Source of the DNA: Rhodobacterales bacterium HKCCSP123
GTDB lineage: Bacteria; Pseudomonadota; Alphaproteobacteria; Rhodobacterales; Rhodobacteraceae
Assembly (NCBI GenBank): GCA_015689745.1
Contig: WVSO01000011.1
Span: 1 to 64,000 of the forward strand
Direction of reading: 5' to 3'
Length of the DNA stretch: 64,000 nt
Below the pieces are notes generated by a model. The model was not told the DNA's origin, searched no databases, and was given only the letters and a program-made list of their open reading frames with translations. Below are positions 435 through 18,500 of this stretch, piece by piece. A program made the position numbers and the translations under genes. Position 1 is the first letter of the stretch. Each line of letters begins with the position of its first letter.

Positions 435-501
435 GCGTGGCCCAGGTGCCATGTGGGGCGGGCGCCGAAGCGACCCCGCCAGATTCGAGGCGCTCCAGAA
501 G

Positions 502-518: not shown

Positions 519-556
519 AAAACAAATAGATAGACGCAATATGTCGTGTCTGCTAT

Positions 557-571: not shown

Positions 572-652
572 GGTCGAGCATCGCGTCGGACGTTGGGTCT
601 GTGCTCTGAAGCGTGACAGTCGCGCCCCATTCTCAGATACGGAGGCCATGCC

Positions 653-748: not shown

Positions 749-1437
749 CCCTGCCAAAGATGCCTGACCCGCAGGACTTCGATCTCGCCAGTTTCGGCGC
801 GATGCTCTGGCGCCGCATCGCCCTGCCGAACGAAGACCCCGGCTCCTTCGAGCTCTTTCGCGACGCCATGTTCCAGGACCTGCAGCCGATGACGCCCTAC
901 GAAGCCGTGATCGTCGACAACCTGATCCGGGTTGAATGGGCCATTCTCGAGCACCGCCGAATGCAGGACGCAATCCTGCGGAAAGGCATGCTGGACGCGG
1001 CCCGCGACCGGCTTTTCGCCGTTCGGACGGCGGAACACGGCCGCGCCTTGACGGCGTTCGAGGCTCAGTTCGAGGAGGATGACGAGGGCGTAGACGAGGA
1101 CGTGGACGAAGACGAAGACGAAATCGAGGATCAAGACGGAGAGGTCTGGGAGGAGCCACCCTGCTTCGATGCCGACGCGGTGGAGGCCGAGGCCAGGGTG
1201 CTGCTGGATCAACTGGGCTCCGGTGACCCCGCTGAGGTTGCCAAGGCCGATCGTCTCCTCTTGAAGCTCGGGACGTCGCGCATGGACCTCATGGTCGAGG
1301 TCTGGGGCAAGGTCTCCGGGTCGATCGCCCGGCACGAAGGAATCATCCGCGACAACGAAGGCCGTCGCCGTGAGATCCAGAGGGACCTCGAGGCCTTGCA
1401 ACGCCGCCGACCCATCGAAGGGTCACTTGCCTCATGA
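745..1437 (+). CDS. acidic hypothetical protein (230 aa)
   Basis: I chose the ATG at 745, which overlaps the stop of the upstream leader ORF. An in-frame start at 613 would add 44 unnatural-looking residues. The product has a helical N-terminal region (about residues 30-110, including PYEAVIVDNLIRVEWAILEH), a very acidic Asp/Glu-rich linker (about 113-140) and a charged, probably coiled-coil C-terminus. There is no signal peptide. I recall similar uncharacterised proteins in Rhodobacterales, often followed by a partner with the motif KSTGPRSAAGKAR, as here. The stop overlaps the next start (ATGA at 1434-1437), so the two proteins are probably made together. Function unknown. Confidence 0.7.
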   Translation: MTLPKMPDPQDFDLASFGAMLWRRIALPNEDPGSFELFRDAMFQDLQPMTPYEAVIVDNLIRVEWAILEHRRMQDAILRKGMLDAARDRLFAVRTAEHGRALTAFEAQFEEDDEGVDEDVDEDEDEIEDQDGEVWEEPPCFDADAVEAEARVLLDQLGSGDPAEVAKADRLLLKLGTSRMDLMVEVWGKVSGSIARHEGIIRDNEGRRREIQRDLEALQRRRPIEGSLAS

Positions 1438-2017: not shown

Positions 2018-2408
2018 TTTCCCGAAACGAACCCAGATGCAACCTTGGGTTGTCTTTCCTGATGGGTCTTCCGGGACAGGGCCGCGCGGGGCCTCGATCT
2101 GTCCTCTGCCGCCGCCAAGCCGGGGAGAGACGGCGTTCCCGGTCTCCGGTGCCAGGTCCCAAGCCGGTCGTCAGGACAAGGGGGGGCGAATGCCCGATAA
2201 CGCGTCTTCTCCACACGAAAGATGTGATCTCTTGCCACCGGTGTCGGGCAGCCCGACCGTCAAAGGCCCGGGTCACCGGCCCATCGAGGCGTGACCTGAC
2301 GGGCACACATCTGCCAAACGTCGCTCGACAGCAGCGAATCGCTTTCAGGCCGTAAGCGCATTCTGTAAATATCAGGCGAAATCCGAAGTCTTATTGGAGC
2401 TTATGGAC
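2018..2408. other. intergenic region, no gene seen
   Basis: No convincing gene is present. A weak 6-bp hairpin (AACCCA at 2030-2035 with TGGGTT at 2046-2051, followed by GTCTTTCC) may end the upstream operon. The last 60 bases before the barrel gene are more AT-rich and probably carry its promoter. Confidence 0.4.
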
Positions 2409-3161
2409 ATGATCTCTCGTCACATTTTGGCCGCTCTCGCCGGCTTCACTGTCACCGCCAGCGCCGCCCTTGCCGGTGGTGTCGTCGAAACACCCGAGCC
2501 TCCCGTCGTCATCGCACCCGTGGCACCGGTCCTCGCTTTTGAGGGGCTCTACGCAGGTTTGTCCCTCGGTATGGCCTCCGCAGAACTCGACTATTCACCT
2601 CTCGAGGACGACGAGGAGTGCGATGGGTATGAATGCGACCTGATGGAAGCACTGGTGGAGTTTCTCGAGTTTGACGAAGACGGTCATGCATATGGCGGCT
2701 TCGTCGGCTACAACGTACAGCGTGGAAACGTCGTGTTCGGCGGTGAAGTACGTGGTCTGATGTTCAACGACGTGAGTCGCACCTATGACTTTGACCGCGA
2801 ATTTTTTTCGACCAACCAACTTTATATCAATGGTTATGATGGCGACTTTCCATCCGCGAGCCTTGAAGTCGACTATGTCGTCGATCTGCGCGCTCGCGCT
2901 GGTTTTGCCGCAGGTGACGCTCTGATCTACGGGGCAGCTGGTTGGTCCCGTGCCGGCTTGAGCGGCGAAATGTGCGCCTATGGCTCCTGTGAGAGCATGG
3001 ATGACACGGCGTCGGGTCCAAATGCAGGTGTCGGTGTCGAGTACAATGTCACTGAGAGCCTTTTCGTCGGCGCGGATTACACGATGCGCTGGCTCGAAAT
3101 TGATGGTGGACCAGATCTCGACCTGAATACGCTCACCCTGCGCGGGGGCTTCCGCTTCTGA
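2409..3161 (+). CDS. outer-membrane beta-barrel protein, Omp25/31-like porin family
   Basis: This 250-residue protein has a signal peptide (MISRHILAALAGFTVTASAALA) followed by a mature start GGVVETPEPPVVI. It then shows alternating aromatic and polar strands (FEGLYAGLSLG, GGFVGYNVQRGNVVFGGEV, ARAGFAAGDALIYGAAGWS, VGVEYNVTESLFVGADYTM) and ends in FRF, the terminal aromatic signature of outer-membrane barrels. Acidic runs near residues 55-80 probably form surface loops. I chose the ATG at 2409 because GGAG lies 9 bases upstream; ATG 2403 and TTG 2394 are in frame but badly spaced. It is expected in the outer membrane as a small porin-like or structural barrel. A strong terminator follows at once, so it is probably a single-gene transcript. 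Confidence 0.85.
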   Translation: MISRHILAALAGFTVTASAALAGGVVETPEPPVVIAPVAPVLAFEGLYAGLSLGMASAELDYSPLEDDEECDGYECDLMEALVEFLEFDEDGHAYGGFVGYNVQRGNVVFGGEVRGLMFNDVSRTYDFDREFFSTNQLYINGYDGDFPSASLEVDYVVDLRARAGFAAGDALIYGAAGWSRAGLSGEMCAYGSCESMDDTASGPNAGVGVEYNVTESLFVGADYTMRWLEIDGGPDLDLNTLTLRGGFRF

Positions 3162-3180
3162 GTGGGTCAATCTAAGCATG

Positions 3181-3208
3181 AAGGGCCACGCCGAGGCGTG
3201 GCCCTTTT
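3181..3208 (+). terminator. strong rho-independent terminator after the barrel gene
   Basis: AAGGGCCACGCC (3181-3192) pairs perfectly with GGCGTGGCCCTT (3195-3206) and is followed by TT. The usable stem is about 11 bp with a four-base loop. The hairpin ends 15 bases before the next ATG at 3223. Confidence 0.85.
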
Positions 3209-3222
3209 CCTTTTGAGGCTCC

Positions 3223-4263
3223 ATGAAGACGATCAAGCTCCCCAGAAATACAGGTTTGATCTTCGAGGCCCTGCCAGCAGATCGACGGGTGCTCGTCCGT
3301 GTCGAGGACAATGGCCGCCCCAATTATGTTTGGCCCAACCGGCTTGCGCTCCCGCCGAAGGTCCTGAAAAGCGCCACCGCAAAAGCCATGCGGTTCCTTT
3401 ACCCGCCCAAGGAGCCGATCTCGTTCGAACATGTGCCTTGGATGATCAACTTGTGCGCAGACGCAGACGATTACGGCTATGCGATGGCTGCACTGTCAAA
3501 AACCTTCACGGACACGCCAATCTTCAATCACCCCGACGGCATCCTGCGGACGCGCCGCGATCGCGCGGCGGCCCTTCTCGAGGGCATAGAGGCATTGGAA
3601 ATCCCGACTTGCGTACGCTTCAGGCCAAAGACGCTGTCCGACTTCGAGGAGACGTTCCAGAAGAACTCCTTCACGTACCCGGTTCTCGTTCGACCAGAGC
3701 GCTCGCAGACCGGAAAGGACCTCGTGAAAATCAATACCCCGATTGAGTGGCGCCAGCTTGAGGGAATGCGCTGGTCAGATCGGGCCTTTTACATGACGCA
3801 GTACGTCGAGTTCTCCGACGTGACCTCTGAGGGAACGCGCGCGTATTTCAAGCTCCGAATCCTTGTCTGCGGTGACACGTTCTTCGTTCGACAGGCCTTA
3901 ATGTCTGACAAATGGATGGTGCATGTCAGCACATCAAGCCGGGACAGATCTGCCTCAGAGGATGAGTGGGCACGCATGCAGATGTTGCGTAACCATCCGA
4001 AGGTCGAGGAGATCGCTCGCGTCGCAAGAGAACAGTTTTCGTTGGATGTTTTTGGGATCGATCTCGGGTATCTGCCAAACGAAGACAGGTTCGTGTTCTT
4101 CGAGGCAACGGCTGCGATCTCGATCTATGAAACGACGAAGGCGACGCAAGGGCACTTGTATCCTGCCCTTTTCGACTACCGTGTGAAGGGCGAACAGGAG
4201 ATCGCCAAACTCCTGCGCACACCGGAGAAATGGCGCGCTGCGAGGACACAGGCCGTAGGCTGA
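3223..4263 (+). CDS. ATP-grasp-like protein of unknown substrate
   Basis: This is a soluble protein of 346 residues with a GAGG ribosome site before ATG 3223. The layout recalls uncharacterised ATP-grasp proteins: an N-terminal domain, then HPDGILRTRRDRAAALL (about residue 103), FTYPVLVRPERSQTGKDLVKI (a lysine-containing beta region, about 149), and near the C-terminus FGIDLGYLPNEDRFVFFEATAA, which resembles the metal-binding strand with a late Glu. ATP-grasp enzymes ligate a carboxylate to an amine or thiol using ATP, but nothing here shows the substrate. The gene starts 15 bases after a terminator, so its promoter must overlap the hairpin or it depends on read-through. Confidence 0.55.
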   Translation: MKTIKLPRNTGLIFEALPADRRVLVRVEDNGRPNYVWPNRLALPPKVLKSATAKAMRFLYPPKEPISFEHVPWMINLCADADDYGYAMAALSKTFTDTPIFNHPDGILRTRRDRAAALLEGIEALEIPTCVRFRPKTLSDFEETFQKNSFTYPVLVRPERSQTGKDLVKINTPIEWRQLEGMRWSDRAFYMTQYVEFSDVTSEGTRAYFKLRILVCGDTFFVRQALMSDKWMVHVSTSSRDRSASEDEWARMQMLRNHPKVEEIARVAREQFSLDVFGIDLGYLPNEDRFVFFEATAAISIYETTKATQGHLYPALFDYRVKGEQEIAKLLRTPEKWRAARTQAVG

Positions 4264-4684
4264 CGAAGTCTGGTTCAACGGTTAGAACTCGATCACAGCG
4301 CGAGATTTCGTCTACCGGACAAGATCAGGGGGACACATGCCCGATCTTTGCGTTGCCTGAGCGCATGTGCCTTTTCGTGATCCTGTCGGGCCTGGTCGTC
4401 GGCCCCACAAAGACCGGATAGTCATCTTCCGGTTCTACAGTAGACCGCTCAGCTCAGGTCGGCTTCGACAGCCGTAGCAAGGTCTCGGGGATCAGTCATA
4501 CTGGACACGTCGGCCCCGCGTTTCTGTAGGAGCGCATACCTGGCGACGTAGGTGTCCGCTTCCTGACGCCGCGTCTCGGGGCTTTGTGTTGCGTCCGTGG
4601 CAATCGACACGGCGAGTGCGCCCCAGGAATACCTGCTAAATGGGATAACCGCTTCCGACAGAGGAGGCTGCCCGCCGGACGCCC
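4264..4684. other. intergenic region with a possible gene remnant
   Basis: No complete gene is visible. The minus strand of 4449-4690 keeps one open, natural-looking frame (listed separately). The rest shows nothing recognisable. A GGAGG at 4663-4667 sits too far from the ATG at 4685 to be its usual ribosome site. Confidence 0.4.
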
Positions 4685-4690
4685 ATGATG
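4449..4690 (-). pseudogene. possible C-terminal fragment of an unidentified protein
   Basis: On the minus strand a frame without stops runs into a TGA at 4449-4451. Its last part reads naturally (ETRRQEADTYVARYALLQK, then SSMTDPRDLATAVEADLS). The frame has no good start; a GTG near 4613 would give about 53 residues and an ATG inside only 16. It may be a decayed C-terminus, a small real gene, or chance in GC-rich DNA. I cannot name a family. Confidence 0.25.
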
Positions 4691-5413
4691 AACCTCGACA
4701 GCTTCGCCGCCGCCTTGATCGATGCTCACGGCACGAATTCCCGGTTCGTGCCCGACCTGCCGCAGCTGTCGCAGGCCGATATCCGCGCCGTGCAGGCGCG
4801 AGTCAGTGCAGCGCTAGGCCCGGTCGCGGGGTTCAAGATCGGACGGGCCATCGACGGCACCCCGTCCCTCGCCCCGATCGCCGCGCGTTACGTCGTCGCC
4901 GACGGTGGCACCCGCACCGTAAGGGACAGGCTCGGCATCGAGCTTGAACTCGGGTTCGAGATCATCGCTCCGATCCCGCGGGGCGGCCTGCCGGCGCGCC
5001 CGGAGCGCCACGTAAGACCCTGCGTCGTTCTGGAACTCGTCGATCCCCGTCTCAAGGGCGCCGAGGCCGAGCGACCGGACCTGAAGCTCGCGGATTTCCA
5101 GATCAATGCCGGGCTCGTCGTCGGCGCTCGGCTCGAGGACTGGGACGGGAGCGACTTCCGGCTCCTCCGGGCCCACCTGCGCAGCGCGGACCGGGTCGTC
5201 ATGGACGGTCCTGTGACCGTTCCCGGAGGGTCTGCGCTGGCGAGCCTGGAGCTCCTGCTTGTCTCCCTCGGTGACCATTGCGGCGGGCTGCAGGTGGGGC
5301 AGACGGTCATCACTGGGTCGGTCTGCGGATTGCCGTGGTTCACGCCCGATGCGGACATCACGGGCCGGATCGGCGGGTTGGGCGACGTGTCGGTCAGGCT
5401 GCGAGGGACGTAG
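4685..5413 (+). CDS. 2-keto-4-pentenoate hydratase-like protein (FAH fold)
   Basis: A 242-residue protein with the layout of the MhpD/DmpE hydratase branch: an N-terminal helical part (AAALIDAHGTNSRF), VAGFKIGRA (about 47-55, the usual GyKig/FKig motif), IELELGFEIIAPIPR (about 83-97, carrying acidic metal ligands) and FQINAGLVVGARLEDW (about 139). These enzymes hydrate 2-hydroxypentadienoate-type acids late in meta-cleavage pathways. No partner genes of such a pathway are adjacent, so the true substrate is uncertain. ATG 4685 and ATG 4688 are both possible starts. Confidence 0.75.
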   Translation: MMNLDSFAAALIDAHGTNSRFVPDLPQLSQADIRAVQARVSAALGPVAGFKIGRAIDGTPSLAPIAARYVVADGGTRTVRDRLGIELELGFEIIAPIPRGGLPARPERHVRPCVVLELVDPRLKGAEAERPDLKLADFQINAGLVVGARLEDWDGSDFRLLRAHLRSADRVVMDGPVTVPGGSALASLELLLVSLGDHCGGLQVGQTVITGSVCGLPWFTPDADITGRIGGLGDVSVRLRGT

Positions 5414-5615: not shown

Positions 5616-6194
5616 TCAGCTCTCCGCGTGCTCGCAGGTCACGTTGGGATTGAACGGCATCAGGACACCCATCGGGTTCTCCCTGAACAGCCAGACGTGC
5701 TGGTCGTAGTGCGGCATGAACCCATGGGCTTCGTCTCCTGCGGTTTCCGGGTCGTCCGCCATGTGATCCCACGTGCGACCGTTGAGCGTGGGCGCTTCTC
5801 CCATCCCTGCGGCTTCCCACGCCGCCTCGAACACGAGGTTCTCGACCGCAACGAGTTCCAGCGAACCGTCTGCCTGCGGTTCGTAGATGAGGATCGCAGG
5901 CTGTGCCCAGTCCGTGTGTGTCGATTGCCCGTCGACGCGAGGCTCGGTCGCCGTAATCTGCAGCATTCGCGGGTGGATGTAGTGGATGCCCATCGCTCCA
6001 AGTTCGGCAGGCAACCCCTCGCCTTCAGCCGAGACACAGTGGTTGTCCGGCGTGATATAGCCATCCGCCAGAGCCACGTTGATGTCCGTGTACTTCTCCA
6101 CGCTTGCCCGCAACGCGTCGAGATCCACTTCGTCAGCTACGGCCGACATGGGTGCCATGGCAGCGAGCAGCGCAAGGATTGCCGTCGTTCTCAT
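5616..6194 (-). CDS. exported hypothetical protein (192 aa)
   Basis: A signal peptide (MRTTAILALLAAMAPMSAVA, cleavage probably before DEVD) sends the product to the periplasm. The mature part is acidic and rich in His, Trp and Met: MGIHYIHPRMLQ near 87, then a C-terminal segment GFMPHYDQHVWLFRENPMG (about 157-175) followed by NPNVTCEH. The clustered histidines suggest metal binding, which is inference. A GGAGG-type site lies before ATG 6194. I recall similar unnamed proteins in many Proteobacteria but no proven function. It is divergent from the cytochrome gene at 6355. Confidence 0.75.
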   Translation of the reverse strand: MRTTAILALLAAMAPMSAVADEVDLDALRASVEKYTDINVALADGYITPDNHCVSAEGEGLPAELGAMGIHYIHPRMLQITATEPRVDGQSTHTDWAQPAILIYEPQADGSLELVAVENLVFEAAWEAAGMGEAPTLNGRTWDHMADDPETAGDEAHGFMPHYDQHVWLFRENPMGVLMPFNPNVTCEHAES

Positions 6195-6354
6195 TTTCTT
6201 CCTCCCCTGAGCCGACTTGAGCGAAGATCACGTCTCAATCGGCTCTCTCTCCCTACCACAAAAAGGAACGAGTCGCCTTATGTCCGTCTTGGTCTGCCGG
6301 TTCTGCTATGCTCGGCATGCTGTCACGAGTCGGCACGGAGGCAGAGAAGACCCG

Positions 6355-6741
6355 ATGTGGAGGAGAACCATCCCGGCCTGTTGCCCCGTGCTGATCGTTG
6401 CGCTCCTTGCGCCGCTCGCTGCCTATGGCGAGGAACGACCCTCTCCCGATTGGTCCGATGTGAGCGCGATTTTCGAGGAACGGTGCGTCATGTGCCATTC
6501 GGTCGACGCGGGTGCGTCGAGGGGGCTGCGACTGGACGACTATGACGCCGCGCTGGCAGGAAGCGACCGGGGCCCCGTCCTGTTGTCCGGAGACGCCGCG
6601 CGCAGTGAACTGATGCGCCGCTTGCTCGGCGAAAGCACCCCACGCATGCCATTCCTCAGCCGCGCACTGCCGGACGACCAGATCGCGGTGATCGAAGCCT
6701 GGATCATCGCCGGCATGCCGGACGAGCGTGGATCTCGCTAG
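6355..6741 (+). CDS. small c-type cytochrome domain protein
   Basis: A signal peptide (MWRRTIPACCPVLIVALLAPLAAYG) is followed by a compact domain with one haem-binding motif CVMCH (Cys44, Cys47, His48). A likely distal Met occurs in TPRMPFLSRALPDDQ. The context around CVMCHS...GLRLDDYDAALAG resembles the Planctomycete-type cytochrome C domain often fused to larger proteins, here free-standing at 128 residues. It should be a periplasmic electron carrier; its partner is not evident. I chose ATG 6355, since an upstream in-frame start at 6217 would add 46 non-natural residues. A 247-base gap separates it from the next operon. Confidence 0.8.
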   Translation: MWRRTIPACCPVLIVALLAPLAAYGEERPSPDWSDVSAIFEERCVMCHSVDAGASRGLRLDDYDAALAGSDRGPVLLSGDAARSELMRRLLGESTPRMPFLSRALPDDQIAVIEAWIIAGMPDERGSR

Positions 6742-6988
6742 GCAACGTCATGGAGCGACGTTCCGCCCCGTGACCTTCCAACTGCCAGCGCGGAGACAGG
6801 TGGCGTGCTCGGCCAGTCCTCGGGGCGGGCAGGGGAAGGATCCTGGTCGCCGGTACGTGAGACCGCGGGGCGAGCATGTCTCTTCCCCGATCCTCGGAAG
6901 TGAACTGACGAGGGTTCACGGGAGTCCAGACGCTCGCTAAGCTCGGTACGGCAAGCCCTTGTTTCGTCCATGCCGGAAGGAGCGTCTC

Positions 6989-9742
6989 ATGTCTCTGCAA
7001 ACGCTCTCTGAACTGCTCACGAAGCTGAGCGAGACGGATCGCAAGAAACGCGGCTGGCATCCGGTCGATCTTCCGAAGGGCGCGGTCCTGTTCGAACAGG
7101 GCGATCCCGCGGACAGCCTTTTCCTCGTCACCGAGGGCTGTCTCAGCCTCGCGGTCGACGGGAAGGAACTCAGTCGGGTCGGCCCGGGTGGTTCGCTCGG
7201 CGAATCCTCCGCATTCTACGCGCGGGAACGGCGGGCCGGGCGGATTACCGCCATCGAGGACAGCAAGCTGTTCGAACTCGGACGTTCTCGTCTCATCGAG
7301 ATGCGCGACACCGATCCGGACGACTATGCCGTGATCCTCGACGCCGCGCTCACGGATGCGGCCGCGCGGCTCGACCAGATGGACCGACGCGCCTGGACAC
7401 GTTCGGTCGATACGGCCTACGCCGAGGCCTGGCCGCGGGCTCCGCAGGCCACTGCATCGCCGCCTGCCGATCTCGTGCAGGCCCTTCGCCGCATGCCTGT
7501 CCTGCTCTGGTCCAGCGGCCAGGTCCTGTCGGAGATCATGGAAGCCACGACGCCCGTGTTCGTTCCGGCGGGACATGCCCTGTTTCGCGCCGGCGATCCG
7601 GGCGCAAGCATGTTCCTTCTCGCCCGGGGCGAGATGGAACTGTACCGAGGCCCCGGCACACCAGGCGCCGTCCTTGGTCGCGGCGGCTTGATCGGGGGCT
7701 CGGGCCTCGTATCCCGCACGCAACGGACCGCGACGGTCGTCGCCCGACAGGACAGCTGGCTTCTGGAGATCGGCCCCGAGGCCTGGCGGATGACGGGTCT
7801 TGCCGGGCTGGCCCTGCGCGAGGCCACCCTGACGGCGCTTGGATTGCACCTGCGCGCCGCAAACCGCGAATACTCGAAATCGGCGTCCCGGCAGGACGAC
7901 TTCGCGTCCATCCTGGACACCGGCTCGCACCTGGACGGCTGGCAGGCTGGCGATCCACTGGCCGGGATCGGGCTCGAAGACCTGATTTCCCCTCCTGATC
8001 TGCCGAGGCGCGACCCGGAGTTCGACCGTCTGTGTCGCATGATCCGGGGTGCGATCATCGGCCGGGAAGCAGCCATCGAAACGCCGTTCGGCCAGCGACG
8101 CCTGGTCTATGCAGACTACACGGCTTCCGGTCGGTCGCTGACCTTCATCGAGGATTTCCTGCGGGATCGGGTGATGCCGCTCTACGCCAACACCCATACC
8201 GAGGCCTCGGCCAGCGGCCTGCAGACCACAAAGCTTCGGGAAGAGGCGCGCGCGTCGGTCGCAAGTTCCGTGAATGCAAGCGACGCCGACGAGGTGATCT
8301 TCGTCGGGTCCGGCGCAACGGCGGCCATCAACCGCATCATAGACATCCTCGGCCTGCGCAAGGCAGCCAGGGGAGCGGTCCCCCTGCCCGAGGAAGAACG
8401 GCCGGTCGTCTTCATCGGGCCCTACGAACACCACAGCAACATCCTGCCCTGGCGACACAGCATTGCCGACGTGGTCGAGATACCGGTGGACAACCACGGC
8501 GAGCTGGATCTCGACCGCCTTCGGACCGAGCTAGAACGCCATGCCGATCGGCCGCTGCGCATCGGGTCCTTCTCGGCGGCCTCGAATGTCACCGGCCTTG
8601 CGACCCCGGTCGACGAGGTCGCCCGATTGCTGCACGCGCATGGCGCGCTGTCCTTCTGGGACTATGCCGCCGCCGGCCCCTATGTTCCCATCGACATGAA
8701 CCCGCCGGCAGAGGGTGCCCACAAGGACGCGATCTTCATGTCGCCGCACAAGTTCGTCGGCGGCCCGGGCACGCCGGGGTTGCTTGTGCTCAAGAAGGCG
8801 CTGGTGACCAGCGCGGTACCGACCAATCCAGGTGGCGGGACCGTCGATTTCGTGACGGCGACCGACTCCCTTTACTCGGCTTCGATCGCCCATCGGGAAG
8901 AGTCGGGGACGCCCGCGATCCTGGAGTCCATCCGCTGCGGGCTGGCGTTTCGCCTGAAGGACCAGGCTGACCCGCATCGGATTCACGAGATGGAAAGACG
9001 CTTCGTTCGCGCCGCGATCGACAGCTGGACGCAGAACTTCAAGATCCGCATCCTTGGCCCGCTGGACGCCGAGCGCATTTCGATCGTGTCGTTTCTCATC
9101 CGGCACGGGCGCGGATACCTCCATTACAATTTCGTGGTCGCGCTTCTGAACGACCTGTTCGGGCTGCAGTCGCGCGGGGGCTGCTCCTGTGCAGGCCCCT
9201 ATGGCAGCAGGCTGTTCGGGTTGGACGAGACGGCAGGCAATGCCTTTCTCGACCTCGCCCGCGACGGGCTCACCTGCTACAAGCCAGGATGGGTGCGCGT
9301 GAACTTCAACTACTTCATCAGCGAGGAGGAATTCCGCTACATCCTCGATGCCGTTCACCTCGTGGCGATCCACGGATACGCGATGCTGCCGCAGTATGAA
9401 ATCGACCCCGCAACGGGGATCTGGTCGCACCGTGGCGGCGAGAGGTTCCGCCCCGCGAGCCTTGGCGATCTCGATCTCTCGGGAGAGGCGCCCACCTGGT
9501 CGCGCGGCGTCGATCTGCTGGGCGACGACGTGCTCTCCGCCCAACTGGCCGAAGGAAGGCGCATCCTCGAGGCGGCTGCCCAGGGCGTCCCCGATCCCGT
9601 GGCGATGCCGGCCCTCTCGGAAAAGGAGGCCAAGTGGCGCTGGTTCCCGCTTCCCGGCGAGCAAGCCGCCTGGCTGCGACACATGAACGGACATGCAGAC
9701 CGACCGGACGCTTCGGTCGGGCCCTTCAGGGAGCCTGCCTGA
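6989..9742 (+). CDS. tandem CNB domains fused to a cysteine-desulfurase-like PLP enzyme
   Basis: A 917-residue fusion. Residues ~25-115 and ~185-280 are two cyclic-nucleotide-binding-type (CNB) beta-roll domains (FEQGDPADSLFLV at 35; FRAGDPGASMFLLARGE at 199). From about residue 365 a class-V aminotransferase domain follows: YADYTASGRS, YEHHSN, the PLP lysine Lys588 in SPHKFVGG, and the cysteine loop GGCSCAGPYG (Cys732, Cys734), which fits sulfur removal from cysteine or C-S lyase chemistry. About 110 further residues follow. ATG 6989 has a GGAAGGAG site; an in-frame TTG at 6959 is less likely. The next gene starts directly after the stop (TGAATG). It is presumably cytoplasmic, with activity perhaps gated by ligand binding to the N-terminal domains. 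Confidence 0.85.
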   Translation: MSLQTLSELLTKLSETDRKKRGWHPVDLPKGAVLFEQGDPADSLFLVTEGCLSLAVDGKELSRVGPGGSLGESSAFYARERRAGRITAIEDSKLFELGRSRLIEMRDTDPDDYAVILDAALTDAAARLDQMDRRAWTRSVDTAYAEAWPRAPQATASPPADLVQALRRMPVLLWSSGQVLSEIMEATTPVFVPAGHALFRAGDPGASMFLLARGEMELYRGPGTPGAVLGRGGLIGGSGLVSRTQRTATVVARQDSWLLEIGPEAWRMTGLAGLALREATLTALGLHLRAANREYSKSASRQDDFASILDTGSHLDGWQAGDPLAGIGLEDLISPPDLPRRDPEFDRLCRMIRGAIIGREAAIETPFGQRRLVYADYTASGRSLTFIEDFLRDRVMPLYANTHTEASASGLQTTKLREEARASVASSVNASDADEVIFVGSGATAAINRIIDILGLRKAARGAVPLPEEERPVVFIGPYEHHSNILPWRHSIADVVEIPVDNHGELDLDRLRTELERHADRPLRIGSFSAASNVTGLATPVDEVARLLHAHGALSFWDYAAAGPYVPIDMNPPAEGAHKDAIFMSPHKFVGGPGTPGLLVLKKALVTSAVPTNPGGGTVDFVTATDSLYSASIAHREESGTPAILESIRCGLAFRLKDQADPHRIHEMERRFVRAAIDSWTQNFKIRILGPLDAERISIVSFLIRHGRGYLHYNFVVALLNDLFGLQSRGGCSCAGPYGSRLFGLDETAGNAFLDLARDGLTCYKPGWVRVNFNYFISEEEFRYILDAVHLVAIHGYAMLPQYEIDPATGIWSHRGGERFRPASLGDLDLSGEAPTWSRGVDLLGDDVLSAQLAEGRRILEAAAQGVPDPVAMPALSEKEAKWRWFPLPGEQAAWLRHMNGHADRPDASVGPFREPA

Positions 9743-10660
9743 ATGTGTCGCGTCACGGCGTATATCGGCCCCGAGATCCGATTGAACAAACTGCTCTCCG
9801 AGCCCGACAACGGCCTGATCCGCCAGTTCATGCCCCAGCAGCATGCGATGCTGAACCTGGCCGGTTTCGGAATGCTGGCCTGGAACGACGACGCCGAGAC
9901 CGACGAACCGCTCGCCTACCGGTCGACGACCGTCCCGATCTACGACGCGAACCTCGACAGCCTGAGCAGAAAGGTCTCGGCAACGACCGTCCTGGCGCAT
10001 GTGCGCGGCATACCCTACCTGCCCGGGTCGGGCTACGGCCCCCAGAACCTTCACCCCTTCCAGTTTGCCGGCGCCCGTCTGGCACTGGCCCACAACGGGG
10101 ATGTCAGCGATTTCGGAAAGATCCGCGTTCCGCTTCTCGCTCACATCGATCCCCGCCTGGCCGCCCAGATCCGGGGCACCACCGACAGTGAATACGTCTA
10201 TGCGCTGTTCCTGTCCCAACTGCCCGACTGGACCCAGGACGCGGAGGCCGAGGAGATCGTGCGCGCCCTCTCCGCCACGCTGAAGGTGCTGCGACAGGTT
10301 CGATCCGAAGTCGGCGCCGAGACCCGGAGCTCGCTCAATCTCGTCATCTGCGACCGCGACGTGCTTGTCGGCGCGCGCCTGACGCTCGATTACGGGGTCT
10401 ACCCCCTCCCGTCCGACAGCGCCGAGGACATCTACTCCCCCTACCTGGGCCTGTGGTTTACCAGCGGACATGTCTTCGAATGCGGCGAACGTGGATGGCG
10501 CATGGTCAACGGTGACCAGGAACACCGCGCCATTCTCTTGTCGTCGGAGCCTTTGACCCGTGACACGACCGGCTGGGTCGAAGTCCCGGAATACAGTGCG
10601 GTGATCGCCACGCGCTCCGGCAGCAGGGTCGAGACAACCGTTCACGAGGTGGAATTCTGA
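9743..10660 (+). CDS. class-II glutamine amidotransferase, EgtC-like
   Basis: A 305-residue N-terminal-nucleophile amidohydrolase: Cys2 directly after the initiator Met (MCRVTAYIG), LAHVR (His86-Arg88), the glutamine-site motif AHNGD (117-119 = HNG) and TTDSEYVYALFL. These are marks of class-II amidotransferases such as EgtC, which removes glutamate from a gamma-glutamyl thiol intermediate in ergothioneine synthesis. No EgtB or EgtD homologue is in the window, so ergothioneine itself is not implied. The gene begins one base after the stop of the PLP fusion and is followed after one base by a third CNB gene, so the three are surely co-transcribed. It may hydrolyse a gamma-glutamyl bond or supply ammonia for the partner enzyme. 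Confidence 0.85.
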   Translation: MCRVTAYIGPEIRLNKLLSEPDNGLIRQFMPQQHAMLNLAGFGMLAWNDDAETDEPLAYRSTTVPIYDANLDSLSRKVSATTVLAHVRGIPYLPGSGYGPQNLHPFQFAGARLALAHNGDVSDFGKIRVPLLAHIDPRLAAQIRGTTDSEYVYALFLSQLPDWTQDAEAEEIVRALSATLKVLRQVRSEVGAETRSSLNLVICDRDVLVGARLTLDYGVYPLPSDSAEDIYSPYLGLWFTSGHVFECGERGWRMVNGDQEHRAILLSSEPLTRDTTGWVEVPEYSAVIATRSGSRVETTVHEVEF

Positions 10661-10661
10661 C

Positions 10662-11597
10662 GTGACGTCCTTCTACGATGCCCTGCGGCCCGAAGACCGC
10701 GCTGAGCTGGATGACTATCTCGACCCGATCGCCTTCGAGCCGGGCGAGGCCCTTTTTCACCAGGGCGACGTGACCGAAGGGGCGTTTCTAGTCGAGGAAG
10801 GCACCATCGAACTGACCATGACCTTGCCCGGCGCGGAGACCGTCCCGATCGCGCGCGTTGGCCCCGGGTCCTTCGTCGGCGAGGTCGCATTGCTCCAGGA
10901 TGCGCACAGGACTCTGACGGCGGTCGCGGTGGGAAAGGTGCGCGCGAAATATCTCGATGCCGTCGATTTCCGGTCGCTTCTCAATGGAAACAGACCCTCT
11001 GCCTTCATGCTGCTGAAGGAGGTTGCCTCCCTCGTTGCGAGGAGGGTCTACGAAACGGAGCGCGCGATCCTCGATCTTCTGGACCAGCGCCCTGCCGGCC
11101 GCGCCGTTCGGCCCTGTGACGCGGGTGCGCCGCCCCGCAGGTCCGATTTCGACCCGCTGCCCTACCTCGGTGCGTTCCCGCTGTTCTCCTCCTGCGCGCG
11201 GCGCGACAGGGAGGAGTTCGTCAAGCTCGCACGGGTCTTCGAGGCTCCGGACACCTCGACGCTGCTGCGCGCGGGCGAGACGGGCACATCTTGCTGGATC
11301 GTCGTGAGAGGCGCGCTCGAGGCGATCTGTCCGGCAAGCAGGATCCGGCTCGCCGTGCTTGGCCCGGGCGCGCAAGCCGGTCTTCTGGAAGGGCTGATCG
11401 GCGTCCCCCAACAGACGACGGTCCGCGTGCGTGAACGTGCGACCCTGCTCGAGTTGCGCCGGGACGACTTCGAGACCCTTCTCAGTCCGACGTCCCGATT
11501 GTCCTACCGGATGCTTCAGGGGATCAGTGCCGCGGCCATTCACGAAATGGAACGCAAGAACCTCGTCCTCGCGCGGGAACGCAGGCTCCTGTCCTGA
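10662..11597 (+). CDS. tandem CNB-domain protein (311 aa)
   Basis: GTG 10662 lies one base after the preceding stop, with GAGGTGGA as ribosome site. The first CNB domain (about residues 15-120) has FEPGEALFHQGDVTEGAFLVEEG and the phosphate-cassette-like PGSFVGEVALLQDAHRT. The second (about 175-300) is weaker (LLRAGETGTSCWIVVRGALE). There is no DNA-binding helix-turn-helix, kinase or channel segment, so this is a stand-alone sensor or scaffold rather than a Crp-type regulator. It ends the operon with the CNB-PLP fusion and the amidotransferase, and its domains resemble those at the N-terminus of the fusion, which hints at a complex. Ligand identity is unknown. Confidence 0.8.
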   Translation: MTSFYDALRPEDRAELDDYLDPIAFEPGEALFHQGDVTEGAFLVEEGTIELTMTLPGAETVPIARVGPGSFVGEVALLQDAHRTLTAVAVGKVRAKYLDAVDFRSLLNGNRPSAFMLLKEVASLVARRVYETERAILDLLDQRPAGRAVRPCDAGAPPRRSDFDPLPYLGAFPLFSSCARRDREEFVKLARVFEAPDTSTLLRAGETGTSCWIVVRGALEAICPASRIRLAVLGPGAQAGLLEGLIGVPQQTTVRVRERATLLELRRDDFETLLSPTSRLSYRMLQGISAAAIHEMERKNLVLARERRLLS

Positions 11598-13200: not shown

Positions 13201-15159
13201 CTAGAGAGAAATGCGATACCTCGCGAAGCCGTCCGGGCCTTCACCGGCCGGCTCGATCTCGACGCCTTCCACGGCGTCGATGAAATCCGCCGCCGCCGGT
13301 CCGGTGTCGAACAGCACGGTGGTCCCGTCCATTGGCGCGAAGGTCCAGTTCGCATCAGCCGACGGGCTCACGGTGCCCTGGTCCACGATGTAGCGCACGA
13401 TCACGTCGCGGTTGGTATCAGGTCCCTCGAAGATGACCGTGGAGGGATTGGCGCCAGGGAAGTTGCCGCCGCTGCTCGCACGGTAATTGTTCGTTGCAAC
13501 AATGAAGTGCTGCGCTTCGTCGATCGGGGCGCCGTCATACATCAGGTTGACGATGCGATGCGCGTCGGGGGCCACCACGTCGCCATCGTTGTTGTAGCGG
13601 GAGGGCTGCGAGAGGTCGATCTGGTAGGTCACCCCGTCAATCACGTCGAAATTGTAGGACGGGAAATCGGGGTTGAGCAGGACCTGGTCCGCCTCGCCTG
13701 GCGTGATCTGGTTGAACATGCCTGCCGAGCGTTCCAGCCATTCGCGCACCTGAGCCCCGGTGATGCGCACGGCGCGTACCGTGTTGGGGTAAAGGTAGAG
13801 GTCGGCCACGTTCTTGATCGCGATCGGGCCTGCGGCCACATCGGTGTAGTATTCCGGGCCGCCCCGGCCGCCGGCCTTGAACGGCGCAGCCGCCGAGAGG
13901 ATCGGCAACCCCTCGTGCTCGGTGCCGACCATCATCTGCGCGATGTACCAGGTTTGGGCGTTGGACACGATCTGGACAGAGGGGTCGTCCGCGACAAGCG
14001 CGAAATAGGAATGCAGCGGCGCATCGGTCTGCCCGACTTCGGCGCGGACATAGGCCAAGGTCGCCTCGTGTTCCTCTTCGACGGACGCCAGCACCGCTTC
14101 GTTACTGCCAACCAGTGCCGTGATCGAACGATCCTCCTCGCGCCGGTAGATGGGCCGAGCCTCCACGTCATGCGAGGCAATGCGCCACGTGTTGCCATCG
14201 CGCTCGAGCAACAGGTCGACCAGGCCCATATGGCTTCCCCAGAAGCCCGCCATGACACCCGGCTTGCCCATGATCGTGCCCGCCTCGACATCAACGCCCG
14301 GTGTCTCGGCATAATCGGGGCCGGGGAACACGCGATGGTGGTGGCCGGTGAGGACGACATCAATCCCGTCCACGGCAGCGAGCGGGATCGACGCGTTCTC
14401 CATCATGTCGCTGTGATCGGCCGCGCCGAGTCCGGAATGGCTGAGCGCGACGATGATCTCGGCGCCTTCTTCACGCATCTGCGGCACATAAGCCCGTGCC
14501 GCCGCCACGATATCGCGAACCTGGACATTCCCCTCCAGGTGGCGTCGGTCCCAGGTCATGATCTGGGGCGGTACGAATCCGATGACACCGATGCGGATCG
14601 GATGTGTCTGGCCCGCCCCATCGGTCAGGGTCCTGTCGAGCATCACGTAAGCCTGGACCAGCGTCCTGTCTCCGGTCGCGCTTCCGGCCATCTCGGTTGC
14701 CACATTCGCGCAAACGACGGGGAAGGTGGCACCCGCGACGGAATTCATGAGGAACGGAAGGCCATAGTTGAACTCGTGATTGCCGAGCGTCGAGGCGTCG
14801 AAACCCAGCGTGTTCATGGCCGCGATCATGGGGTGAACGTCACCTTCCGACATCCCGCGCTCGTAGGCCATGTAGTCGCCCATCGGGTTGCCCTGCAGGA
14901 AGTCGCCATTGTCCAAGAGGATTGAATTGGTGGATTCCGCCCTGATGTCGTCGATCAATGCGGCGGTGCGGGCAAGCCCGACCGTATCGACCGGACGGTC
15001 CCCGTAGTAGTCATACGGGTAGACATGGACGTGGATGTCGGTGGTTTCCATGATCCGTAGATGCGCCTGGCCGACCTGAGCCCTTGCAGAGAAGGGGTGC
15101 AGCGCGATGAAACCCGCGCCCGCGGCAAGAAATCCACGGCGATTCAGAAGAAATGGCAT
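13201..15159 (-). CDS. cpdB: 2',3'-cyclic-nucleotide 2'-phosphodiesterase / 3'-nucleotidase
   Basis: A 652-residue periplasmic enzyme. The N-terminus RRGFLAAGAGF is a twin-arginine signal, fitting export of a folded metalloprotein. The metallophosphatase domain (about 30-310) shows METTDIHVHV, LLDNGDFLQGNP, LGNHEFNYG, ALSHSGLG and LTGHHHRVFPG, all standard two-metal ligand motifs. The 5'-nucleotidase C-terminal substrate domain follows (about 360-560). Family enzymes hydrolyse 2',3'-cyclic nucleotides and 3'-nucleotides to feed salvage of nucleoside and phosphate. ATG 15159 has a GGAGG site four bases upstream. It sits between CNB-domain genes and a class III cyclase, but it acts in another compartment. 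Confidence 0.9.
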   Translation of the reverse strand: MPFLLNRRGFLAAGAGFIALHPFSARAQVGQAHLRIMETTDIHVHVYPYDYYGDRPVDTVGLARTAALIDDIRAESTNSILLDNGDFLQGNPMGDYMAYERGMSEGDVHPMIAAMNTLGFDASTLGNHEFNYGLPFLMNSVAGATFPVVCANVATEMAGSATGDRTLVQAYVMLDRTLTDGAGQTHPIRIGVIGFVPPQIMTWDRRHLEGNVQVRDIVAAARAYVPQMREEGAEIIVALSHSGLGAADHSDMMENASIPLAAVDGIDVVLTGHHHRVFPGPDYAETPGVDVEAGTIMGKPGVMAGFWGSHMGLVDLLLERDGNTWRIASHDVEARPIYRREEDRSITALVGSNEAVLASVEEEHEATLAYVRAEVGQTDAPLHSYFALVADDPSVQIVSNAQTWYIAQMMVGTEHEGLPILSAAAPFKAGGRGGPEYYTDVAAGPIAIKNVADLYLYPNTVRAVRITGAQVREWLERSAGMFNQITPGEADQVLLNPDFPSYNFDVIDGVTYQIDLSQPSRYNNDGDVVAPDAHRIVNLMYDGAPIDEAQHFIVATNNYRASSGGNFPGANPSTVIFEGPDTNRDVIVRYIVDQGTVSPSADANWTFAPMDGTTVLFDTGPAAADFIDAVEGVEIEPAGEGPDGFARYRISL

Positions 15160-15583
15160 CGAAGGCCTCCCCGTCCATTCAGTGACCACTGCACATCAAC
15201 CTACAGGACTCGAAGGCTTCACCAAAGAAGAAAGCCATGTTTGAGCGGCCGCCGGGCCACTCCTGATCCATCAGACAAAGATACCGCCGTCATGGGACAA
15301 TTGGTGACCTTTCCCGCAGACCAGCAACCCACAAGAAGGCCATGGGCAATAGGCATCGGACGATGAGATTCGTGGGCGAGTGAAACCTTCGGCGTCGACT
15401 GGCCGGTGCAGGAGAACTTCGCCTGGGGCTGCTTCGCGCCGCACAGTCCCCCTTGCGGCTGGGCGCCATTCACCGCTTCGGAAACCTCGGCAAGGGCGAC
15501 GCTGTGCTCGTCTAGTCTTCGACATCCCGGCAGGAGGGTCCGACCGATCTCTGTCAGCGGGGCCGGCAACGGACCGCCATGGT
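15160..15583. other. intergenic region with a LysR remnant
   Basis: No intact gene is seen. The minus strand of 15466-15596 reads like a broken LysR-type regulator (listed separately). The promoter of the cpdB-like gene should lie in about 15160-15260. Confidence 0.45.
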
Positions 15584-15596
15584 TCAGAAATCGAGT
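15466..15596 (-). pseudogene. LysR-type regulator fragment
   Basis: On the minus strand the frame reads FLNHGGPLPAPLTEIGRTLLP, then GCRRLDEHSVALAEVSEAVNG. This matches the junction between the helix-turn-helix and linker helix of LysR regulators (pattern F-x3-G-x-PL-x-LT-x-x-G-x-x-LLP). There is no HTH start before it and no effector domain after it, so only about 45 residues survive. It overlaps the last codons of the cyclase gene by a few bases. Confidence 0.4.
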
Positions 15597-18500
15597 TCGA
15601 GCGCCCGTCGCGCCGAGACAAAAGCGGGGTGCCCGGCATCCTGCGCCTCATGAAGCGCCCCCAGGGATGCATCCAGCCGGGCTTGCGCCGCCTCGGGCCC
15701 GATCTGCGCCGCTTCGATGCGCGCGCGTGACCCGGCAATCAGCGCCGACCAGGCGCGCGCGCCCATCTTGCGCGCTTTGGAGTCAGCAGCGTCAAGGCAG
15801 TCGAGTATCTCCCTGCTGGCGGCGGCGGCGCGTCTTGGCTGGCCGTTGAGGTTCATGATCTCCGCCTTCAGGCGAAGAACCTCCGGGCCATAGAGAAGGT
15901 CACGCCCGGCGGTGATCCCGTCCTCGGCCTCGGCAAGTGTCGCCTCGGCTTCGGCCATGCGGCCCACCCGGGCATAGCACCGCGCGAGCGTGGCGAGGTG
16001 ATAGACCCGTCCGAGGCTGAGACCGATCGACCGCATCTGCTCGACAGCCGCTTCCATCGCTTCGGTTGCCTCTTCGATCGGGCCATTGCGCACATGCTCG
16101 TGGGCGAGCCAGACATGCCCCGCGACGACCCAGAACGGCTGCCCCGTTGCGCCCGCCAACTCTACGGCCTCTTCCAGTTCATGCCGGTAGGCGACGTCAC
16201 TGTGGGCGTACGTGTAGGGCGCCGTGGAATAGACGTGGATGTATGGCCGCAGGAAGGGAAGCGCTAAGGCGTCTTCATGTTCGCGCGAGAAGTCGAAGGC
16301 GGCACGCCATCCTTCGAGATCTCCAGCAATGTAGCGCCCATGCACCCGAAACAGCGTCGCCATCTCCAGGCTGTCCATCGAATACGTTACCGCCTGCAGG
16401 CGATGCAATTCAGGAACATAAAGACGCCGTGTCTCGGCATAGGCCGCTTCCTGTCCCTCCAAGTCTCCCCTGTTGCAGCAGACGAGGCATCGGACAGAGG
16501 CTGCCAGAACGGCAAGAGCGGGGTCCGCCCTGGCGATCTCGTCCATTCTCCGCGACATGGCAGTCATTTGCTCAATGTCGCCCGTCACCATGTAGTGAGC
16601 CCAAATCCCCCATGCGATCTGGAATTCCGTTTCGCCGCTCCGTTTGCCCTTCAGGCAGAGCTCGAGCGCGCGTTCATAGGCCTCTGCCACGGCGGCATCT
16701 GAAAAACCGCGATGTTGGACGAGCGACAGACCAAGGGTGAAGTGCAACGAGAGCTCGAGATCTTCGCGCAGGGAGTTGTCTGCCGGCACGTCTACAAGTC
16801 GATTTTCTGCCCAGCGCAGAAGCCGGACGGATTCGGCGATTTCACCGATGGCAAGCGCGGCCTGCGCGGCCTCTATGAGCCGTGGGATTGCCTCGGCAAC
16901 ACGATCCGCCCCCATGAGATGCGTTGCACGGGTCACGGGCGACGATGCCAGGCGCTCGGGGGCGACGGTTTCGTAGGCGCGCAGGGCTTCCCCGTGCAGT
17001 TTCCGGACGCGAGCAGCGAGCAGCGTTTCAAGCACCGCATCCCGGACGAGGGCATGATCGAACCGCACCGACCCGTCTGCGGCCGGCCGAAACAGGCTTC
17101 GGCGGACGAGGTTGGCGACCTGCTGGGCCACCTGCTCCTGATCGATGCCCAGCATCTGGGCCAGAATGTCGATCCGGACCTCGGTTCCAAGGATCGCGGC
17201 CGCTTCCACCAGGGGCCGGGCGTCCACCAGATTGCCGATCCGCTCCAGAAGGGCTTCGACCATGGTTGGTGGTATGTTCTCGCCAAGCGCGCGATCGCTT
17301 CGTTCGAGCACCGCCCTTGTAATCTGCTGAATAAAGAGGGGCACGCCCTCGGCCCGCTCCGCGATCTGGGCGCGCGCGGCAGCATCGAGGCTTCCATCCG
17401 TGTCCAAGGCGTCTATCACCCGGTCGACCTCGTCCGTCTGCATCGAACCCAGATGGATGGTTTCGGCATCCGGCAAGGCCAACGCCGTTCCCTCGGGGCG
17501 CCGTGCGGCGAGCACCATCAGTTTGTGCTCCGTGAGAGCGTCAGGCAGCGCCGCGATGAGGCTCGCGCTGTCTGCGTCTAGCCAATGCGCGTCATCGACC
17601 AGCAAGATGGACGGCGTCCGGGGCAGGCGCGCCGCGAGCGTCATGCGGAGGGCAGCCTGGATCATCTCGGTGCGTAGGACGGGGGGCACGGGTGTGTCAT
17701 TCAACGCGCAGAGCACTTCCAGCCCCGGCAGTGCGTCTTCCGGCGCCCAGGCGGCGAGCGTTGCACGCCGGGTCTCGGCGTCATGGGTGCCCGCGACCCC
17801 TGCTAGACTTTCAACGAAGGGGCGGAATGCCCGAAAGCTTTGATCACGTCGGTGGATCTCGCCACGGATGATGAACACGTCGCTCTCGTCGAGAACCCGC
17901 TGCAGGAAGTGCTCGGCGAGAGACGTTTTGCCGAAACCGCCTGGAGCGGAAAGGACGGCGCAGGCCGTCTCGCCGGCTTGGGCGCGGCCCCAGACGGCGT
18001 CAAGTTTTTCCAACATCGCTGCACGACCGATAAAGAGCGATGAGCTGCGACCCTGCACGGAGGGTTGCGCCACCCAGACGTCCATCGGCGCCGCGAAGCC
18101 GCGCAGGTTCCGAGTTCCCAAGGGCGACAACGAAAATTGGTTGGGGTCCAGTCTTTGGCTGGTCTCCATCGATACCGCGATGCGGCCACGGCCCGCTTCG
18201 GGTTGCAGGCGTGCAGCAAGGTTGACCGTCCCTCCAATCGCCATGGTCTCGGCCGAGGCGGCACCCATATTGGCATCTGCCACCACCATCCACCCGGTGG
18301 CGACACCGGCGCTGGCTGACATCGTCTCACCCGAAACGGTGATCTCCTGGGTTCGACTGATGATGTCCTGGGCCGCGCGCACGGCAGGCGCGGCCGAATT
18401 CTTCAACGTTTCCGGGTAGCCGAAATAGGCCAGCATCCCGTCGCCCATGAACTTCGCAACGTAGCCGCCATGTTCACTGACGGCCGTGTTGCAGATGTCC

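Follow-up and report, generated by a model that had tools for sequence, protein, structure and literature searches.

A conserved three-gene operon combines tandem cyclic nucleotide-binding domains, a SufS-like enzyme and an EgtC-like amidotransferase

Rhodobacterales bacterium HKCCSP123 carries a compact operon in which cyclic nucleotide-binding (CNB) domains are combined with a pyridoxal 5'-phosphate (PLP) enzyme resembling SufS and with a class II glutamine amidotransferase (GATase). The operon lies in the first 64,000 nucleotides of contig WVSO01000011.1 (assembly GCA_015689745.1), and this whole stretch is referred to here as the window. Gene 1 encodes two CNB domains followed by the PLP enzyme, gene 2 encodes the GATase, and gene 3 encodes a second tandem CNB protein. 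The operon is real and conserved, and its parts belong to known families brought together in a new combination; the mechanism proposed for it is plausible but unproven. Its presence in distant genomes suggests a signal-controlled sulfur or thiol pathway. Overall, we tentatively propose a second-messenger-controlled breakdown of a gamma-glutamyl thiol, a proposal to which we attach somewhat less than even confidence. Control of cysteine desulfurases is mostly ascribed to acceptor proteins and to transcription. If sulfur release were switched directly by a second messenger in distant bacteria, this would be a new kind of control. Moreover, the operon raises the question of what substrate a distinct branch of class II amidotransferases uses.

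The strongest evidence is the recurrence of the full gene order, equally tight, in two genomes of the Myxococcota phylum (G718, locus L122; G1260, locus L164). Because the order recurs there, the arrangement is not attributable to chance; a search of other genomes had been proposed as a check when the operon was read from its sequence alone, and it gave this positive answer. Identity to the window genes is 51% (G718) and 50% (G1260) for gene 1, 50% and 48% for gene 2, and 36% and 34% for gene 3; among all three operons it spans 50-57%, 46-50% and 34-37%, respectively. The two parts of gene 1 differ in conservation, with 62-68% identity among the three operons for the PLP part and 33-41% for the CNB part. 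The active-site strings YEHHSN, FWDYAAAG, SPHKFVGG and RGGCSCAGPYG are intact in all three operons, each of which keeps Cys734. The window and G718 proteins are sisters in both the PLP tree (support 98/100) and the GATase tree (100/94), G1260 being in neither tree. The PLP part of the window stands outside a starred clade (99/100) that contains the enzyme of a genus-mate (G002) and falls within a group of 19 rows that holds Myxococcota, Rhodococcus and two rows of its own class (85/70). This placement is taken as a sign, not proof, of spread by horizontal transfer. Divergent from the G1260 operon is a gene for a CNB domain fused to an MGS-like domain (L164 5197-6063, +).

The layout of the window operon agrees with what had been read from the sequence alone, namely three genes of this domain content separated by gaps of 0-1 base. 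The gaps are 0 base between genes 1 and 2 and 1 base between genes 2 and 3. Pfam assigns two PF00027 CNB domains (103 bits) and an Aminotran_5 domain (PF00266, 4.2e-44) to gene 1, and two CNB domains (108 bits) to gene 3. All four exceed the Pfam gathering cut-off, the 3.97 Mb genome having 19 PF00027 matches in all. No helix-turn-helix family was found by Pfam in genes 1 and 3; gene 3 was therefore rejected as a CRP/FNR-type transcription factor, and the expectation that it lacks a DNA-binding part held. Atypical base composition was dropped as a candidate feature, with an operon GC of 0.659 against 0.652 (standard deviation 0.025). Phage origin of gene 1 was likewise dropped, since 12 phage records match and none reaches 80% coverage; the five phage rows listed all match the desulfurase part, at 27-29%. 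A sigma-70-like promoter was looked for and none was found. Terminator-like sites number 4 against 2.8 expected, from which no conclusion is drawn.

The enzyme part of gene 1 is closest to SufS-type cysteine desulfurases by both sequence (solved structures, phmmer 1.2e-29) and fold. The model of gene 1 has a predicted local distance difference test (pLDDT) score of 81.4, and its closest folds are SufS-type (VIA Z 30-33 over about 400 residues), a comparison that covers the PLP domain, to which all entries of the PDB list belong. In the alignment to solved SufS chains, Lys588 (within SPHKFVGG) matches the PLP lysine and Cys734 (within RGGCSCAGPYG) matches the catalytic cysteine, carried by the loop that precedes the AxP motif, so that the residues singled out by the sequence-only reading proved well chosen. 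The neighbouring Cys732 is invariant in all 10 rows of the PLP-domain alignment. Gene 1 scores 145.1 bits with the NCBIfam SufS model, under its cut-off of 475.1, and the gene 1 enzyme family forms its own clade on a long branch of the PLP tree, apart from SufS. With the EgtE model TIGR04343 it reaches 29.5 bits against a cut-off of 400, and identification as EgtE was rejected on these two scores. The initial description as a desulfurase- or C-S-lyase-like enzyme therefore stands for its sulfur-type, SufS-like half and fails as regards EgtE. Taken together, desulfurase chemistry in the PLP part appears likely from its residues and fold.

Gene 2 shows the Ntn hydrolase fold, the nucleophile Cys2 and the class II GATase motifs HNG and TTDSE. 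Pfam recognises GATase_4 (4.5e-8), and the NCBIfam EgtC model TIGR03442 gives 114.5 bits, under its cut-off of 218.65. The structural model (pLDDT 87.5) has EgtC 4zfl as its best PDB match (Foldseek E 1.5e-16, 20% identity) and is also near SPO2029. Across 13 aligned GATases, Cys2, Asn118-Gly119, Thr147 and Glu150 are invariant and Asp148 is nearly so. In a tree of 55 GATases, gene 2 belongs to a clade of 12 rows (98/97) that is separate from most others, and within that clade to a 7-row cluster (92/84) of five CNB-linked sequences and two from Polyangium. The absence of EgtB and EgtD homologues, noted earlier for the window, extends to the whole genome: EgtD (PF10017) has no match, 2 of 14 control genomes being positive, and EgtB (TIGR03440) has none either, with a weak control in which 4 of 14 genomes match and none exceeds the cut-off. 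Judged by these comparisons, gene 2 is a distinct class II amidotransferase branch, nearest to EgtC in family libraries and without EgtC's pathway. The earlier ergothioneine comparison thus keeps its value for the fold and family of gene 2 and otherwise did not hold.

The two CNB domains of each pair differ in their phosphate-binding cassettes, whose Glu and Arg we take, from CRP and protein kinase A, to hold the ribose and phosphate of cAMP. Across ten tandem pairs, the first domain (CNB1) keeps the Glu in 10/10 and the Arg in 9/10 (Ser in Legionella adelaidensis), whereas the second (CNB2) has lost the Glu in 10/10. Two pairs from G1260, outside the ten, show the same pattern when read by eye. 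The tandem pairs are only 18-36% identical to gene 3, and yet the CNB1 Glu and Arg are retained, which fits selection on a ligand site. Binding of a cyclic nucleotide by CNB1 is accordingly rated as rather more probable than its absence. Because CNB2 of each pair has lost the ligand Glu, the four CNB domains highlighted at the outset probably mean two ligand sites, the first of each pair having kept its phosphate-binding residues. The picture that was to count against the sequence-only reading, pocketless CNB domains in an unconserved gene order, is the reverse of what was found, with CNB1 residues kept and the order present in three genomes. The CNB tree is divided by a 100/100 split. One side holds the gene 1 pairs (window, G718, G1260) and two stand-alone Myxococcota proteins, and the opposite side holds the gene 3 proteins, the GATase neighbours and the Polyangium pairs. 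In two Myxococcota genomes (L160 1452-2927, L161 7112-8389), stand-alone CNB pairs of the gene 1 type are followed by genes for a CDP-alcohol phosphatidyltransferase and an aldehyde dehydrogenase.

Gene 2 relatives were sought in 101 relatives (27 with a match at 1e-3), 398 genomes of its own phylum (34 at 1e-40), 235 of the phylum of G713, which is Polyangium strain 15x6 and labelled Myxococcota (4 at 1e-50), 296 of the phylum of an Acidimicrobiia genome (3 at 1e-50) and 71 of the class of G718 (3 at 1e-60). Neighbourhoods of unequal length (7-20 kb) were fetched for 10 of 26 other relatives, 7 of the 34 own-phylum genomes, and every matching genome of the other three samples (4, 3 and 3). 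A tandem-CNB gene adjoins the GATase in 7/9 loci of the gene 2 type, which comprise the 7-row tree cluster, G1260 and the Acidimicrobiia locus and are not all independent, the two Polyangium being close relatives. G1260 was counted by its profile score (370.5 bits) and the Acidimicrobiia locus by tblastn pieces, both being outside the GATase tree. Besides the three complete operons, the CNB-linked loci are G624 (L095), with the CNB gene directly upstream of the GATase; Legionella adelaidensis (L039), with a GCS2 ligase, then CNB, then GATase; Acidimicrobiia L011 6001-7803 (coverage 2.65), with patatin, a GATase whose frame is broken and a CNB gene in which the frame likewise seems to change; and G933 (L123), where the GATase is convergent with an oxidoreductase-CNB-CNB protein and, on its other side, has a CNB frame cut by the contig end. 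That convergent protein of 1461 amino acids (L123 1784-6166, -) joins an indoleamine-dioxygenase (IDO)-like part, an FAD/NAD reductase, cytochrome b5 and two CNB domains, and a CBS-domain gene lies upstream on the same strand. By contrast, none of the 21 fetched loci of other GATases (L040-L050, L096-L101, L124-L127) shows a CNB gene within the fetched stretch. GATase-CNB pairs are also found where the PLP enzyme is lacking, so that gene neighbourhoods indicate the GATase as the steadier partner of gene 3. The suggestion that gene 3 is a partner in the operon is upheld by its conservation there, with the correction that this steadier partner is not the PLP enzyme. At another GATase locus, in G535 (L096 7630-10701, -), the GATase (8242-9189) lies between genes for a poly-gamma-glutamate hydrolase and an M20 peptidase, recalling the Dug2/Dug3 pair. 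An Actinoplanes region with the GATase ACSP50_3919 and the CNB protein ACSP50_3924 (PMC7567727), known by description alone, is a further lead.

Free-standing relatives of the PLP enzyme are far more common than the fused form. At 1e-60, a gene 1 profile matched 83 of 235 sampled genomes of the G718 phylum. In 82 of these the match was to the PLP part, and G718 alone had a match spanning CNB and PLP; these counts are lower bounds, the best three candidates per genome having been scored. Among 289 genomes of the window's own class, 8 match the PLP part at 1e-50, and only the window copy stands in a frame of more than 600 amino acids. No CNB gene was found in any of 31 fetched loci with a free-standing PLP enzyme and no GATase, within the fetched stretch. 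Some of these relatives adjoin sulfur genes, in keeping with the sulfur link proposed at the start. On plasmids of Rhizobium etli and Aminobacter, the PLP gene lies directly 5' of a Blh-like persulfide-dioxygenase gene. The products match Blh over its dioxygenase half, with 533 and 553.5 bits, under the two-domain cut-off of 625; in R. etli, a TauE/SafE exporter comes next. In Sagittula, the enzyme shares one run with L-2-amino-thiazoline-4-carboxylic acid hydrolase, and Rhodococcus sp. DK17 encodes an MBL-rhodanese protein about 1.2 kb downstream of the enzyme. Seven loci of the free enzyme have a divergent gene whose product, of about 150 amino acids, belongs to a single family; divergent genes beside the enzyme are assigned to Lrp/AsnC once by Pfam and three further times by annotation. 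At the two Blh-linked loci (L072 5875-8214 and L073 5845-8215), the run of PLP gene and dioxygenase gene with a divergent Lrp/AsnC regulator looks like a cysteine-sulfur catabolic operon. In the genus-mate G002 (L041 5085-7881), a free PLP enzyme of the other clade immediately precedes a GATase that resembles EgtC (167 bits); the locus has a divergent Lrp/AsnC gene and lacks a CNB gene. In terms of gene order, the two enzyme families are paired here a second time, without CNB.

Two Polyangium genomes encode a protein of 1403-1413 amino acids that joins a Ser/Thr kinase, a globin, two CNB domains and a PLP domain. In both, the PLP lysine is replaced by Glu and Cys734 is lost, and the Polyangium copy is probably a sensor without catalysis. 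Its CNB pair lies on the gene 3 side of the CNB tree, a position shown only as being outside the gene 1 group. Because it is not of that group, CNB and PLP domains were apparently fused on two occasions, each time with a different pair. As fused domains tend to work together, the Polyangium protein supports a lasting link of tandem CNB domains with the PLP enzyme. The same reasoning also hints weakly that gene 3 touches the PLP portion of gene 1.

The proposed mechanism would begin with gene 2, whose Cys2 would hydrolyse the gamma-glutamyl amide in a small molecule that contains cysteine (gamma-Glu-Cys, glutathione or a related compound) and so release the cysteine compound. The gene 1 PLP part would then form an aldimine via Lys588, and Cys734 would take the sulfur as a persulfide, as in SufS. 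CNB1 of each pair would bind a cyclic nucleotide, and CNB2 would act as a structural or coupling domain. Gene 1 might thereby gate itself, and gene 3 might gate the amidotransferase or join both enzymes in a complex. The sulfur step is argued from the fold, the residues and what adjoins some free-standing relatives; the glutamyl step from the EgtC fold and the single GCS2 neighbour, in Legionella adelaidensis; and the gating from residue retention in CNB1. For gating and complex formation the chances appear evenly balanced, and a gamma-glutamyl thiol as substrate is a tentative choice that we regard as doubtful. A wider claim, to be viewed as speculative and on balance unlikely, is that this would be the first cyclic-nucleotide-gated sulfur-liberating system. 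In it, a desulfurase-type enzyme and a gamma-glutamyl hydrolase, brought together by tandem CNB proteins, would be switched directly by cAMP or cGMP, linking the supply of persulfide or thiol to a second messenger, and the module would move between phyla and be remade in Polyangium as a kinase-globin-CNB-pseudodesulfurase receptor.

Several observations weigh against this breakdown pathway or parts of it. Complete operons number only three, two of them among the 71 genomes of the class of G718, and the fork that places the window PLP enzyme among Myxococcota, and that includes two own-class rows, has middling support. Sulfur genes are neighbours of a few free-standing enzymes and not of the CNB operon; several other free loci have neighbours without an evident sulfur link, and clustering of four genes on each side of 14 Myxococcota free-PLP loci gave no family common to at least 3 loci. 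The residue presumably equivalent to Gln203 of SufS is Ala in gene 1 (DYAAA), and the chemistry may therefore differ. The Polyangium fusion without the PLP lysine implies that the domain can also serve without catalysis. The gene 1 model places the CNB domains relative to the PLP domain with low confidence, the linker of residues 292-340 having a pLDDT under 50. Furthermore, a CNB gene is missing within about 6 kb of both Polyangium GATases, and five sister GATases have none nearby. The third partners of GATase-CNB pairs vary (P-type ATPase, patatin, GCS2, IDO-reductase) and need not share one substrate. Finally, subgrouping of the gene 3 proteins, GATase neighbours and Polyangium pairs in the CNB tree is unsupported, the group without Polyangium reaching 63/48.

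The main competing explanation is a sensory or regulatory module in which the GATase and the tandem CNB protein form a signalling core, the big partner is swapped by lineage, and the PLP domain senses an amino-thiol. The unrelated neighbours of GATase-CNB pairs, including the kinase-globin, IDO-reductase-cytochrome b5 and P-type ATPase partners, and the altered Polyangium PLP domains inside the kinase-globin-CNB-CNB protein speak for such a module. However, catalysis predicts just what the three operons show, namely intact PLP active-site strings in the best conserved part of gene 1 and, in the GATase, a kept Cys2 and Asn-Gly pair. We hold a purely sensory role to be unlikely. A ligand-free scaffold, in which the CNB domains dimerise or glue the enzymes without cyclic-nucleotide control, is less probable again. 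The loss of the CNB2 Glu in every pair, the fast divergence of the gene 1 CNB part and the missing Arg of the Legionella adelaidensis CNB1 would suit it, but the retention of CNB1 Glu and Arg at such low pair identity argues otherwise, as does a nucleotide-cyclase-like gene 4 kb away.

A biosynthetic alternative, thiol tailoring like the last two steps of ergothioneine formation, would have glutamate removed by the EgtC-like gene 2 before C-S cleavage by the PLP enzyme. Gene 2 is indeed nearest EgtC in NCBIfam and fold, and the two reactions would be consecutive in one operon. Yet the genome has no EgtD or EgtB match (the latter with its weak control), gene 1 scores far better with SufS than with EgtE and keeps the SufS-type catalytic cysteine, and no thiol-adduct-forming enzyme was seen nearby among the window genes scanned, which were not all of them; this route is accordingly considered improbable. 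Least probable by far is a cargo operon of a family 2 encapsulin, with a cysteine desulfurase and a cNMP-binding shell. Family 2B shells carry CNB domains, some with cysteine-desulfurase cargo (PMC8346489, PMC8049743), and the cargo desulfurase 8kg1 stands first in the structure list of gene 1, tied with SufS. Nevertheless, gene 1 reaches only 106.7 bits with model NF041166 against a cut-off of 800, and the operon has no shell gene. A genome search with encap_f2b gave nothing over the cut-off and partial matches at model positions 72-206; none of 14 control genomes passes either, and the family 2A shell was not searched. The cargo assignment of gene 1 was dropped on that score and on the lack of a family 2B shell match over the cut-off. 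The breakdown of a gamma-glutamyl thiol under second-messenger control is retained as our tentative account.

Table 1. Positions of the operon features in the window and of counterparts at other loci
Feature	Position	Strand	Evidence
Gene 1: CNB-CNB-SufS-like PLP enzyme, 917 amino acids	6989..9742	+	Pfam, open reading frame; same architecture in G718, G1260
Gene 1 CNB1; phosphate-binding cassette GPGGSLGESSAFYARERRAG with Glu72 and an Arg kept	7064..7312	+	PF00027 60.3 bits; motif table
Gene 1 CNB2; cassette Glu lost (GRGGLIGGSGLVSRTQRTA), Arg kept	7556..7786	+	PF00027 52.1 bits; motif table
Aminotran_5 (SufS-like) domain, residues 374-742	8108..9214	+	Pfam; alignment; model against SufS, Z 30-33
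Lys588 codon, PLP-binding lysine by SufS alignment	8750..8752	+	Alignment
Cys732, Ser733, Cys734 codons; Cys734 is the SufS catalytic cysteine by alignment	9182..9190	+	Alignment
Gene 2: class II GATase, EgtC-like Ntn hydrolase, 305 amino acids, nucleophile Cys2	9743..10660	+	Pfam, NCBIfam, model
Gene 3: tandem CNB protein, 311 amino acids, GTG start, no DNA-binding part	10662..11597	+	Pfam; counterparts in G718, G1260
Gene 3 CNB1; cassette with Glu74 and Arg83 kept	10731..10985	+	PF00027 71.5 bits; motif table
Gene 3 CNB2; degenerate cassette (GPGAQAGLLEGLIGVPQQ), Glu and Arg both lost	11253..11483	+	PF00027 41.8 bits; motif table
Ribosome-binding-site-like AAGGAG, 6 bases 5' of gene 1 ATG	6977..6982	+	Sequence read
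G718 operon (L122); gaps 2 and -1 bases; gene 1 start is the first possible one, the true start probably residue 42	CNB-CNB-PLP 6015-8906; GATase 8909-9832; CNB-CNB 9832-10782		
G1260 operon (L164); gaps 1 and -4 bases; gene 1 start is the first possible one	gene 1 2185-5004; GATase 1260-2183; CNB-CNB 301-1263	-	
Polyangium kinase-globin-CNB-CNB-PLP protein (L113)	6409-10650	-	
Polyangium kinase-globin-CNB-CNB-PLP protein (L114)	6594-10805	+	

Other genes of the window deserve brief mention. One of them shows 80% identity to a gene on a Loktanella plasmid, in line with a Rhodobacterales host. The cyclase-like gene (15584-18700, -) encodes a protein of 1038 amino acids with zinc-ribbon, nucleotide cyclase, AAA_16 and TPR domains by Pfam, and it is a guess that it could supply the operon with its cyclic nucleotide. 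An adjoining metallophosphoesterase/5'-nucleotidase gene (13201-15189, -) could act on nucleotides. A protein of 977 amino acids (18697-21630, -) has flavin amine oxidoreductase stretches and an acetoacetate-decarboxylase-like part. Additionally, a protein of 346 amino acids (3223-4263, +) faintly resembles ATP-grasp ligases (RimK/CofF, E about 0.001), and an open reading frame of 1786 amino acids (50772-56132, +) has no Pfam match at 0.01.

As far as the open-licence literature on combinations of CNB with desulfurase, GATase or EgtC was searched and its text available, the three-gene operon is not described there, the searches having brought up work on encapsulins, Actinoplanes, ergothioneine and gene-cluster regulation. 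Its nearest known systems each share a part of it. The group II desulfurases SufS and CsdA resemble gene 1 in fold, PLP lysine and catalytic cysteine loop. They are 22-28% identical to it in structural alignments and form a separate branch; gene 1 differs in its CxC motif, long C-terminal extension, N-terminal CNB pair and a score far under the SufS cut-off. EgtC and class II GATases such as SPO2029 share with gene 2 the Ntn hydrolase fold, Cys2 and the HNG and TTDSE motifs, whereas gene 2 is about 20% identical to EgtC over the model, longer, under the cut-off, in a separate clade and in a genome with no EgtB or EgtD match. Dug3 is a fungal class II GATase of glutathione breakdown, with the Dug2 peptidase as partner. 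Both it and gene 2 are hydrolases of the GATase family, Dug3 degrading a gamma-glutamyl thiol; the likeness is an analogy drawn without sequence comparison, and the partners differ. Family 2B encapsulin operons bring CNB domains and a cysteine desulfurase together, with the CNB domain on the shell protein (PMC8346489, PMC8049743). The window operon, unlike these, has no shell gene. Gene 3 gives 47.4 bits with the model of the mycobacterial acetyltransferase Pat, far under the cut-off of 460. Pat, a CNB-GNAT protein, is regulated by cAMP. Although its enzyme domain is a different one, Pat resembles gene 1 in carrying an enzyme domain behind a CNB domain.

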